NCBI RefSeq assembly: GCF_000507765.1
Contig: NZ_KI669403.1
Location: forward strand, 124,001 to 188,000
Direction: 5' to 3'
Length of the DNA: 64,000 bases
Source of the DNA: Streptococcus parasanguinis CC87K
GTDB lineage: Bacteria > Bacillota > Bacilli > Lactobacillales > Streptococcaceae
In this document: positions 38,893-47,692 of the stretch, one piece after another
How the letters are laid out: each line of letters opens with the position of its first letter
Numbering within the stretch: position 1 is the first letter of the stretch
Notes under the pieces: generated by a model
What the model was told of the DNA's origin: nothing
What the model saw: only the letters and a program-made list of their open reading frames with translations
Databases searched by the model: none
Program-made: the position numbers and the translations under genes

Positions 38893-39927
38893 TTATCTTC
38901 TCAACTCATCGACTTTACTTTGATAATCATTGAGACCTTGAGCCACTAATACAGTTTTTCCATTCTCCAGTATTACATCTCCAGCCTGGTATCCTTCGTT
39001 TAGGTATGGCTCCGAATAACTACCCTTTATCTCTTTTTGAATTTGTTCAAATCTTTTCTCCCGAATAGTTTTTAATGCTTCATGTCTTGCTTCGAGAGTT
39101 AACAACATGACTATTTTTTCAGCGTCTTTTGCTACGTTTAACATCTGTTGAGTAGTGAGTTTCTTATTTGGTGTCAACCCGATTGTCATTAGCTTCTGAC
39201 CGTATGACAGATTGTTTTTCTTTTCCTTTACTCCAAGTGTCATTAGTTTCTGTCCGTAAGACTGATCTTTGTTATTCTCAATGCTTTTCAGTTCTTCGAT
39301 ATTCGCATCGATTTTATCTAGATTCTTTTTGATTACATTTTCCATAAACAAGTGTCGCCCTTGTTCTGGGACATGTTCGAGAATACTAGCAACCATTTCA
39401 CGGGAAATTTTTTTCATGAACATTTGTTTATCTACAAACCCATACTCTAACGCACGATCACAAGAAAACCATGTTTCTTCTTCCATTAAACTTCTAATAG
39501 TTTCCATTGGTAAACCTGTCTTGTTTTGATATGCCAAAGCGATACTATTGTTTACTACTTCTAGAGCTTCAATTTGTTTTTTATGCTCTTTAGTATTACC
39601 ATACGTCCAAGCCATTGCGTTATGTATCATAAACAAACCTGTCGGGCTCATTTCTACAGTATCCCCAGCCATTGCAATCACACTGGCAATACTAGCACAA
39701 ACTCCCACTATTTTTACTGTTACTTGTCCTTTATATTCTTTTAATCGACTGTATATTTCACTTCCTGTAAATACATCACCACCGCCAGAATTTATAATCA
39801 CTTCTACGGGTTGAGAAGAAGACGGTAATTCAATATCTTGTAAGGCCGTGTATTCCTTCCCCTCTTTTTTATATGCTTCAATACTATTATTTGGGATAAT
39901 TGCCCCTTTAATCTCAATCTTATTCAT
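38893..39927 (-). CDS. ClpP-like phage prohead (head maturation) protease with extended C-terminus
   Basis: A 344-residue protein. Residues 1-170 form a ClpP-type serine protease like phage prohead proteases. NSGGGDVFTGSEIYSRL is at about 46-62, the nucleophile Ser79 is in GVCASIASVIAMAGD, and His102 is in MIHNAM. Glu151 in EEETWFS replaces the third triad residue, as in other phage members. Residues 195-300 are charged and helical and include an 18-residue tandem repeat (SYGQKLMTL at 223, SYGQKLMTI at 241). Residues 303-335 (YQAGDVILENGKTVLVAQGLN) resemble a small carbohydrate-binding-type beta module; that similarity is weak. In phages such proteases sit beside the capsid gene and trim scaffold and capsid. 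Here no capsid gene exists. The start overlaps the upstream gene by 8 bp, so the two are coupled. Confidence 0.85.
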   Translation of the reverse strand: MNKIEIKGAIIPNNSIEAYKKEGKEYTALQDIELPSSSQPVEVIINSGGGDVFTGSEIYSRLKEYKGQVTVKIVGVCASIASVIAMAGDTVEMSPTGLFMIHNAMAWTYGNTKEHKKQIEALEVVNNSIALAYQNKTGLPMETIRSLMEEETWFSCDRALEYGFVDKQMFMKKISREMVASILEHVPEQGRHLFMENVIKKNLDKIDANIEELKSIENNKDQSYGQKLMTLGVKEKKNNLSYGQKLMTIGLTPNKKLTTQQMLNVAKDAEKIVMLLTLEARHEALKTIREKRFEQIQKEIKGSYSEPYLNEGYQAGDVILENGKTVLVAQGLNDYQSKVDELRR

Positions 39928-45347: not shown

Positions 45348-45403
45348 GTTATACCTCCTTTACATATCAACTCCAATAAAATGAAAGGTGCTCATCTTGA
45401 AAA

Positions 45404-45526
45404 GTTGTAATTTTTGTTCAACATCTGCTGACACGATTATTATATTGTACTTTTTGTTCAATGTCAATAGTTTTTTTAAAAAAAGTTGTAATTTTTTTTC
45501 ACTGTAAAACTAAAACGTGATATAAT
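45404..45526. promoter_or_regulatory. Lambda-like switch: divergent promoters and three operator-like repeats
   Basis: Leftward promoter: TTGACA (45467-45462) and TATAAT (45444-45439) on the minus strand with a 17-bp spacer, a perfect consensus. Rightward promoter: TTCACT (45498-45503) and TATAAT (45521-45526), 17-bp spacer. Three related 19-bp sites of the form GTTGTAATTTTTGTTCAAC lie at 45404-45422, 45444-45462 and 45485-45503. The second fills the spacer of the leftward promoter; the third overlaps the rightward -35 box. Confidence 0.78.
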
Positions 45527-45550
45527 AATCTTGAAAGGTGTTACTTATAA

Positions 45551-45988
45551 ATGAATAGACTTAAAGAACTTAGGCTTAATAAAGAAGAAAATGGAAAAGT
45601 TGGAGTTACTCAACAAGAGGTAGCTGACAAAATAGGTGTAACAAAACGAACATATATATACTGGGAAAAGAACGAGAGACAGATCAAGTCAGAGAAAGCT
45701 CAACTTTTAGCAGATTATTTTAAAGTTGATGTGGGCTATTTGCTAGGTTATACTGATGAACCCCATAAATCTATGTACGACTTGGCTCAGCAAAATCCAG
45801 AGGATTTCCCTAGTGATGAAGACGATCTCCAAGACATTACCCCCCAAGGACTTGTGGACGCTTCTTCAGAAAATAATAAAAGATATTTTTATATAGAAAA
45901 CATAACTAATTTTGTAAAAGATAAAAAAACTACAAATAGTAAGTTAAAGTTGCTATCTGATATAGTAGATAATTTCAAAAAGTCGTAA
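45551..45988 (+). CDS. CI/Stl-like repressor of the satellite, without a self-cleavage domain
   Basis: A 145-residue XRE-type repressor. The N-terminal HTH is QQEVADKIGVTKRTYIYWEK (about residues 22-41). The C-terminal part (about 75-145) is acidic and then basic, with no LexA/S24 peptidase signature. RecA-driven cleavage is therefore unlikely, and derepression by a helper-phage protein, as for SaPI Stl, is the natural hypothesis. It is transcribed with the integrase. Its stop codon lies inside the first palindrome of the array that follows. Confidence 0.8.
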   Translation: MNRLKELRLNKEENGKVGVTQQEVADKIGVTKRTYIYWEKNERQIKSEKAQLLADYFKVDVGYLLGYTDEPHKSMYDLAQQNPEDFPSDEDDLQDITPQGLVDASSENNKRYFYIENITNFVKDKKTTNSKLKLLSDIVDNFKKS

Positions 45989-46310
45989 CGTTTCGACTTT
46001 TTGAAAAGCAACTTACCCTATTTTAAAATTACCCAACGTTGGGTAATATTAAATGCTACTTTAATAATCACGACTACATTATTAACCTAAAAGCGACAAC
46101 GTTGTCGTTTATCAAATTTCGTAACGTTTCGAAATGTTGCAACGTTGCAACATAACCTAAGATCGTTCAACGTTGAACGATTTCAAATTACTCAACGTTG
46201 AGTAATTTGAAATTATGGGACGTCACATAATTTAGAAGGCCCAAGAAATGGCAAATACGACCACATGGTCGCATTTAATAAACTTGAAAAGTGACAACGT
46301 TGTCACATTT
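45973..46310. repeat. Array of ten different palindromes, mostly with an AACGTT core
   Basis: Ten units of 20 bp, each a 6-bp core plus matched 7-nt arms. Starts: 45980, 46028, 46091, 46116, 46134, 46162, 46187, 46212, 46255, 46289. Left arms in order: AAGTCGT, ATTACCC, AAGCGAC, ATTTCGT, ATGTTGC, ATCGTTC, ATTACTC, ATTATGG, ATACGAC, AAGTGAC. Cores are AACGTT in eight, GACGTC in the eighth unit and CACATG in the ninth. Every unit starts with A and ends with T. Four are perfect over 20 bp; the seventh is perfect over 34 bp (46180-46213) and the first nearly so (45973-46006). Units 6, 7 and 8 are spaced exactly 25 bp apart. Arms differ between units but match within each, so pairing or dyad symmetry, not arm sequence, is conserved. 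Confidence 0.9.
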
Positions 46311-46314
46311 ATTT

Positions 46315-46347
46315 AGTTTTCTTTTCTCACCTATCCGCTTGCCTGTT
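46315..46347 (+). repeat. Copy 2 of the 33-bp direct repeat
   Basis: One mismatch from 44777-44809. It forms most of the integrase leader, ending 18 bp before the integrase start. Confidence 0.8.
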
Positions 46348-46365
46348 GATGGAAAGGAAAGAAAA

Positions 46366-47529
46366 ATGAATATCAAAACCGTAGTAAAAAAGAATGGCCA
46401 AACTGTCTACCGTGCTAGTGTTTATTTAGGTGTAGATCAGATGACGGGGAAAAAGTCCCGTACCACTGTTACGGCTAATACTAAAACGGCAGTCAAAATC
46501 AAGGCTAGGGAAGCTATTAATACTTTTGCCAACAATGGATATTGTGCTAAAAATAAACCAACGATCACTACTTATAGAGAGTTAGTTGCTCTATGGTGGG
46601 AGAGTTATAAGAACACAATCAAACCAAACTCCCAACAATCTATGGAGGGTATTGTAAGGCTTCATATTTTGCCCGTTTTTGGCGATTATAAACTAAATAG
46701 CTTAACTACCCCTATTATTCAGCAACAAGTAAATAAATGGGCAGATAGAGCGAATAGAGGGGAGAAGGGGGCATACGCAAATTATAGTTTTCTAAACAAT
46801 ATTAACCGCCGTATACTTCAATATGGAGTTACTATGCAAGTGATCCAGCACAATCCAGCCCGTGATGTTATTATTCCGCGTAAGCAACAAGCAAAAGAAC
46901 AAAAGATTAGATTTTTTAGCAATCAAGAATTAAAGAAATTTCTAGCCTATCTTGATAGTTTGGATCTAAATTTATATGAAAATCTTTTTGATTACGTTCT
47001 TTATAAAACTTTGCTGGCCAGTGGTTGCCGTATTGGGGAAGTTCTAGCCCTTGAATGGTCTGATATAGACCTTAAAACAGGTACGATCAGTATATCTAAG
47101 ACTTTAAACAGATATCAAGAAACAAATACCCCTAAATCAAAAGCAGGCCTAAGAGATATTGAAATAGATCCAGCGACTATCTCACTTTTAAAGCAGTATA
47201 AAAAGCGCCAACAAGTAGAATGTTGGAAGCTGGGAAGGTCTGAAAATATTGTGTTCACACCTTTTACTACTAAATACGCTTACGCTTGCTTATTGAGAAA
47301 AAGACTACAGGGGCATTTTAAGAGTGCTGGGGTACCCGATATAAGTTTTCATGGTTTTCGTCATACCCATGCTACTATTATGCTTTACGCTGGAATAGAG
47401 GCTAAAGATCTGCAATATAGACTAGGCCACTCTAATATAACAATGACATTAAATACATACGTCCACGCTACAAAAGAAGGCGCAAAAAAAGCCGTCTCAA
47501 TATTTGAAACGGCAATCAGCAATTTATAA
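46366..47529 (+). CDS. int: Tyrosine recombinase (satellite integrase)
   Basis: The start is the ATG at 46366 (MNIKTVVKKNGQTVYRASVY) behind GGAAAGG; a GTG at 46291 lies inside the palindrome array and is rejected. The 387-residue product has an N-terminal arm-binding domain, a SAM-like core-binding domain (about 60-165) and the catalytic domain. Arg222 is in ASGCRIGEV, His329 and Arg332 in FHGFRHTH, His355 in LGHSN, and the nucleophile Tyr365 in LNTYVH. It recombines the att repeats at 38131 and 47596. It lies about 65 bp from the right att site. Confidence 0.93.
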   Translation: MNIKTVVKKNGQTVYRASVYLGVDQMTGKKSRTTVTANTKTAVKIKAREAINTFANNGYCAKNKPTITTYRELVALWWESYKNTIKPNSQQSMEGIVRLHILPVFGDYKLNSLTTPIIQQQVNKWADRANRGEKGAYANYSFLNNINRRILQYGVTMQVIQHNPARDVIIPRKQQAKEQKIRFFSNQELKKFLAYLDSLDLNLYENLFDYVLYKTLLASGCRIGEVLALEWSDIDLKTGTISISKTLNRYQETNTPKSKAGLRDIEIDPATISLLKQYKKRQQVECWKLGRSENIVFTPFTTKYAYACLLRKRLQGHFKSAGVPDISFHGFRHTHATIMLYAGIEAKDLQYRLGHSNITMTLNTYVHATKEGAKKAVSIFETAISNL

Positions 47530-47595: not shown

Positions 47596-47617
47596 TAACT
47601 AAAAGGGTAGTAAAAAG
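47596..47617 (+). repeat. Right attachment repeat (attR candidate)
   Basis: TAACTA followed by AAAGGGTAGTAAAAAG. It overlaps the T-tract (minus strand) of the rpsD terminator, so the element sits directly behind rpsD without damaging it. Confidence 0.8.
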
Positions 47618-47655
47618 AAACAAAGCACTCTAGGGAAAATACCTAAAGTGCTTTG
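47611..47655 (-). terminator. rpsD terminator
   Basis: Stem CAAAGCACT (47621-47629) with AGTGCTTTG (47647-47655), extended by TAGG/CCTA, then TTTCTTTTT on the minus strand inside the att repeat. Confidence 0.85.
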
Positions 47656-47692
47656 TTTGAAGGCTTTCCAGCCTATCATAGTTAAAAAGATA

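Follow-up and report, generated by a model that had tools for sequence, protein, structure and literature searches.

A satellite phage in Streptococcus parasanguinis CC87K carries, between its repressor and integrase genes, a run of short palindromes that share a core and differ in their arms. Which protein reads these sites, and what does the satellite gain from so many of them? We addressed these questions in a window of 64,000 nucleotides (the whole stretch analysed; all positions are those of the window). The units and flanking genes are listed here, with the units as 24-mers, compared with alleles of DUF3102, a phage gene described below:

45551..45988, + strand: CI-like HTH repressor of the satellite
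45978..46001: unit 1, AAAAGTCGTAACGTTTCGACTTTT; arm GTCGA/GTCGT; holds the repressor stop codon; arms of phage DUF3102 alleles PNVETLRHLG (L066, L131, L231, L232), T:T mismatch included
46026..46049: unit 2, AAATTACCCAACGTTGGGTAATAT; arm TACCC; 23/24 to DUF3102 allele PNYPTLGNLG (L029/L079)
46089..46112: unit 3, AAAAGCGACAACGTTGTCGTTTAT; arms GCGAC/ACGAC; each half-arm is known from DUF3102 alleles (L191, L194, L203)
46114..46137: unit 4, AAATTTCGTAACGTTTCGAAATGT; arm TTCGA/TTCGT; 23/24 to DUF3102 alleles PNFETLRNLG (L030, L227)
46132..46155: unit 5, AAATGTTGCAACGTTGCAACATAA; arm GTTGC; same arm in DUF3102 alleles PNVATLQHLG (Javan370 = L126, L124)
46160..46183: unit 6, AGATCGTTCAACGTTGAACGATTT; arm CGTTC; 23/24 to DUF3102 alleles NRSTLNDLG (L023-L025, L186, L199)
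46185..46208: unit 7, AAATTACTCAACGTTGAGTAATTT; arm TACTC; 24/24 to DUF3102 allele PNYSTLSNLG (L022, L198)
46210..46233: unit 8, AAATTATGGGACGTCACATAATTT; arm TATGG, core GACGTC; no matching phage allele found
46253..46276: unit 9, AAATACGACCACATGGTCGCATTT; core CACATG; right half, GTCGCATTT, is that of the CACGTG-core DUF3102 allele PNTDTWSHLG (L342)
46287..46310: unit 10, AAAAGTGACAACGTTGTCACATTT; arm GTGAC; shared with the DUF3102 alleles of L111 and Javan372 (L128), the latter a prophage of the same host as the related satellite Javan373
46369..47529, + strand: tyrosine integrase of the satellite

Counted as 20-bp dyads with at least 9 of 10 complementary pairs, nine units are present at 45961-46330, whereas 1000 dinucleotide shuffles of the region gave 0.047 on average and never more than 1; elsewhere in the window only three dyads of this quality occur. 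The tenth unit reaches 8/10, and the ten-dyad array described in the original prediction is real. Its finer design was also seen as described: the core is AACGTT in eight units and GACGTC (46212-46231, symmetry 9/10) or CACATG (46255-46274) in the other two; every 20-mer has A as its first and T as its last letter; a perfect 34-bp palindrome (46180-46213) is centred on unit 7; and the stop codon of the repressor lies within the first unit. The exact 25-bp pitch ascribed to several units was found for three pairs of centres (46100-46125, 46171-46196 and 46196-46221), with the remaining centre-to-centre spacings between 18 and 63 bp. Matched arms had been claimed for every unit, which holds to within one pair for nine; the CACATG unit has two mismatched pairs, the central pair among them.

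The element is the Streptococcus satellite phage Javan376/382, with a 100% match over the array region and the protease gene, and has the features of the Javan satellites (8-15 kb, integrase, repressor, VapE primase, incomplete structural set). Beyond int, at the satellite edge, the sRNA SpF01 (Rfam; 47612-47691) adjoins rpsD. The relatives Javan312 and Javan373 (88-90%) also bear the array. That symmetry itself is maintained had been proposed from the matched arms, and it is borne out by compensatory arm changes in these related arrays: in Javan373, unit 2 has an A-T pair changed to T-A and unit 7 a T-A pair changed to C-G, for which Javan312 has the half-way form in a three-way comparison. 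Unit 8 is a fully symmetric dyad in both relatives. At the position of unit 2, Javan312 has another unit altogether, a copy of unit 8, and this duplicate suggests that arrays may change through recombination between units. The duplicate of the unit 8 region is on the repressor side of the Javan312 array (L016:7183 versus L016:7380). Dyad-cluster scans of satellites with related integrases (L043-L053, 65-87% identical) revealed no array; the integrase therefore does not need it.

Similar sites occur well beyond this element. BLAST searches of Streptococcus genomes returned single unit copies beside other neighbours, and a covariance model of the 24-bp unit matched in 24 of 285 Streptococcus genomes. 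About half of the matches fall at a constant position within a single gene some 300 codons long; the rest are non-coding and mostly in satellites. The gene corresponds to Pfam DUF3102 (PF11300; PHROG 1733), the commonest home of the dyad design. In streptococcal phages it is part of the early operon, where a small cro-like gene immediately precedes it and an antirepressor gene follows. When IMG/VR and a single genome of each species were scanned with a pattern, the in-gene arrangement turned up also in Oscillospiraceae, and in phages with far more distant DUF3102 proteins. Arrays were found before an excisionase/primase operon, between replication and packaging genes and between head genes. 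The placement between a satellite repressor and integrase thus holds for the window, but the design is confined neither to satellites nor to integrase-proximal DNA. With a strict pattern of three cores (CAACGTTG three times), arrays within the genus were seen only in the window's own genome, and the matches in IMG/VR were mostly due to chance, L007 excepted. Searched against plasmids, the sequence matched only those of Vagococcus, weakly and not in the array. The window's own genome has no DUF3102 match.

Several occurrences are recorded here as separate observations. Seven such dyads, some with a CACGTG core, lie between phage capsid and connector genes (L193:2869-3167). Two non-streptococcal genomes of the same phylum (G466 and G491; L261-L290) have 16 and 10 DUF3102 matches with several dyad cores. 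One deltaproteobacterial genome (JACQWT) has the site AAATTCGACAACGTTGTCGAATTT on three contigs, apparently outside DUF3102 genes (L239:2067, L248:7712, L255:1032).

In the phage genes, the 24-bp dyad AAAT-N5-AACGTT-N5-ATTT lies in frame and encodes P-N-x-x-T-L-x-x-L-G. The best dyad of each gene was compared with synonymous re-codings of the same protein segment, in 18 genes found by protein similarity (set A) and 14 found with the Pfam model alone (set B). The best symmetry, out of 12, averaged 10.7 in set A and 10.1 in set B, versus 7.2 expected, and p was at most 0.01 in 26 of the 32 genes; among the set B genes that fell short, three are truncated copies or have diverged. The dyad is kept where the core has become AGCGCT, TACGTA, ATCGAT, TCCGGA or CACGTG, where the Leu is replaced by Phe, Tyr or Trp, and even in another reading frame (L118 and L121, ELDNVVQFG). 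Retention through changes of core, residue and frame points to selection on the DNA, paid for in amino acids, and the in-gene results together show DNA-level selection of the dyad. The variety of cores also speaks against a methylation target centred on ACGT, one of the roles first considered. Three complete phage genomes have exactly one site each, in the DUF3102 gene. In L145 a second, identical site lies directly upstream of the DUF3102 start codon; this rare arrangement suggests autoregulation, with sites that may be able to act as operators. Our literature search returned no relevant paper on DUF3102 and no published description of the dyad within its gene.

The N-terminal domain of DUF3102 was modelled with AlphaFold2 (pLDDT 85) as an all-helical structure, in which helices 47-54 and 59-71 have the spacing of a helix-turn-helix. 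The top Foldseek matches in the PDB are Spo0J, ParB-parS and Noc-NBS (1vz0, 4umk, 6t1f, 6y93), with SopB and KorB lower. They have probabilities of 0.93-1.0 and TM values of about 0.5-0.6; because their E-values are 0.09-0.4, the relation to ParB is one of fold rather than of strong statistics. One DUF3102 member has a sequence match to HTH_ParB (E 1.4e-4). The domain thus models as a ParB/Noc/Spo0J-like DNA-binding domain, followed by a long region that is probably coiled coil, and this does not agree with the LacI-type operators mentioned in the original prediction. The ParB CTPase motif GE[RK]R is absent from 53 DUF3102 proteins, and no ParA gene is present among the annotated DUF3102 neighbours in Javan370, 310, 372, 20617, 5093 and MissF.

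Protein and site vary together. In 53 non-identical streptococcal-type DUF3102 genes, which represent 27 arm pairs, the similarity of the arms is correlated with the identity of residues 55-64 (r=0.60; 0 of 1000 permutations) and with that of the segment encoded by the dyad itself (0.62), and hardly with residues 5-39 (0.09) or 90-110 (0.11). Co-variation of neighbouring codons can partly reflect linkage, but residues 90-110 are physically nearer to the dyad, and the flat downstream segment speaks against linkage alone. In a pair of proteins that are 89% identical (L079 and L085), the differences are concentrated in residues 42-83. Judged from these correlations and the model, the DUF3102 protein most likely reads the palindrome of its own gene, presumably by direct binding.

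The array units resemble the in-gene sites allele by allele. The reference set comprised 32 distinct dyads with 34 half-arms, from DUF3102 genes that retain the upstream domain. A phage half-arm was found in nine of the ten window units; random units with the base composition of the arrays would give 1.26, and 0 of 20000 draws did as well. Part of the allele set behind this count had been found with patterns or the model derived from array units, and many alleles also by protein searches. In other satellite and phage arrays, with the lineage of the window excluded, the count was 17 of 33 units versus 4.2 expected. Units 1 and 4 share their T:T mismatch with the genes, in which the codons GAA ACG TTA (E-T-L) force it, as would be expected if the units came from genes. 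Satellites and prophages of the same host give half-site matches at best (Javan372/Javan373, and less well Javan310/Javan312; two host strains).

Other elements contain DUF3102 sequence around their sites: a stop-interrupted fragment surrounds a TTCCC site in L093, short coding remnants are left around the site in L097 and L081, and in L082 a tandem fusion joins two alleles, PNVETLRHLGTTALHLI and then NRSTLNDF. In the pneumococcal satellite Javan750 a truncated DUF3102, annotated as RelE, lies between the repressor and int (L129:9887-10357). From their sequences, such fragments look like intermediate stages of site capture. Truncated DUF3102 genes, with the DNA-binding part and the dyad, are also present between repressor and integrase in other pneumococcal satellites. 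A truncated satellite protein could act as a dominant negative as well.

We propose that the array is probably a multi-allele panel of candidate binding sites for the DUF3102 proteins of helper or rival phages, most likely acting as a decoy. Each phage DUF3102 gene would bear its cognate palindrome just downstream of the recognition-helix codons, so that specificity and site could travel as one exchangeable cassette. Satellites may have captured pieces of many alleles and trimmed them to bare sites, which we infer to be the origin of this particular array. The DUF3102 made by an induced helper or rival phage would bind whichever of the units match it, and replication of the satellite would provide more sites and sequester more protein. 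Titration of a protein with only one site in its phage genome would then weaken the phage or tip the balance towards the satellite, and a panel of arm types would extend this to many phages. Among the possible effects, the decoy is the most likely, with docking to the satellite's benefit a close second. Operator-like sites or decoys for dimeric regulators, and a phage-interference target, were among the options first listed, and the evidence favours these. More tentatively, and with odds a little below even, satellites may maintain captured sites as a heritable collection with one site for each phage allele, comparable to a spacer library but based on protein binding, in an arms race with a target family that evolves gene, specificity and site as one cassette. 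The proposal would give a concrete function and a target site to DUF3102, an uncharacterised family of phage proteins that extends across phyla, and would make its DNA specificity readable from sequence, as the site is within the gene. Recognition of many helpers or rivals through a panel of sites suggests how satellites might cope with diverse helpers.

The same protein-site match is required if the array were instead a sensor, at which DUF3102 from an induced helper alters transcription of the repressor-integrase region and switches the satellite on for any allele present. The array does span the interval from the repressor stop codon to about 60 bp before int, and the site upstream of the DUF3102 start in L145 suggests operator ability; but the arrays of other satellites and phages lie at excisionase/primase, packaging or head genes, and satellites with related integrases manage without one, which makes a sensor unlikely. 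Because the places of the arrays differ between elements, an effect in trans is likelier than control of one promoter, and varied places are what a trans-acting sponge would allow. Docking is a further use of the same binding, in which the satellite would share the service that DUF3102 renders to phage DNA (segregation, replication or protection). It draws on the ParB/Noc-like fold and on SGI1, whose functional helper-plasmid parS sites destabilise the helper and stabilise SGI1 (PMC10954446), yet the annotated DUF3102 neighbourhoods have no ParA and the modelled domain, all-helical, goes with the absence of the CTPase motif; as an account of its own we regard docking as quite unlikely. Could the units be functionless relics of recombined-in DUF3102 fragments? 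The gene fragments around sites in other elements would fit, and correction of quasi-palindromes by template switching can keep palindromes matched. Such correction would, however, erase the T:T mismatches that persist in array and genes, the window retains bare sites with the coding flanks gone, and the in-gene symmetry is selected and tracks the helix-turn-helix residues. We consider relics improbable.

The remaining readings do without DUF3102. A chain of RNA hairpins or bidirectional terminators has in its favour that every dyad can fold and that 45400-46500 contains five terminator-like sites versus 0.5 expected. The dyads are loop-less, however, G:T mismatches show no excess over A:C (6 and 6), and the site also occurs within open genes, where a terminator would do harm; the hairpins suggested in the original prediction are thus highly improbable, and a structured RNA family was rejected, the only Rfam match being SpF01, outside the array. 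Least probable of all is that the satellite's own repressor or integrase uses the units as operators or recombination sites: the position between the two genes invites this view, but the identical type of site lies inside phage DUF3102 genes, close integrase relatives have no array, and the arms vary between units, unlike the sites of one protein. A recombination site was set aside on these grounds.

Among known systems, SGI1 is the nearest precedent for the array, as a dependent mobile element with palindromic sites for a ParB-like protein of its helper, an IncC plasmid (PMC10954446); our literature search on palindromes inside phage genes or satellite decoys gave nothing else on point. SGI1 differs in having two sites of one specificity and a helper with a full ParABS system, whereas the array here has about ten sites with many specificities, and DUF3102, whose binding and effect are predicted here, has neither a ParA neighbour nor a CTPase motif. 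Spo0J-parS and Noc-NBS of Bacillus subtilis share the closest modelled fold and a palindromic site, and one parS of B. subtilis lies inside spo0J itself. The parS and NBS sites are 16 bp long, fixed in sequence and present many times per chromosome, whereas the DUF3102 site is about 24 bp long, usually occurs once per phage and has arms that vary with the allele. The O gene of phage lambda contains the ori iterons, and is likewise a phage gene for a DNA-binding protein that holds its own binding site; the iterons, however, form a replication origin of several sites, whereas phages with DUF3102 have one dyad, and their replication initiators are separate proteins. In phage-encoded resistance (PER), phage origins cloned in lactic acid bacteria titrate a phage protein and inhibit the phage. 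Extra copies of a site on another replicon would act alike here, but PER was built in the laboratory and has one specificity. REP/BIME elements and integron attC sites are also arrays of non-identical imperfect palindromes; they differ in that the sites of the present array correspond to alleles of one protein gene, and no connection with a REP transposase or an integron integrase was noticed. REP/BIME or IS200-type repeats were rejected as an identity of the site, which occurs once per phage in the three complete genomes, at a fixed position in one gene.

The satellite in the window also encodes a ClpP-like head maturation protease (38893-39927), with 43% identity over 209 residues to the homologue in the DUF3102 phage Javan370. 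Its sequence suggests a role in capsid interference or in forming a small capsid of the satellite's own.
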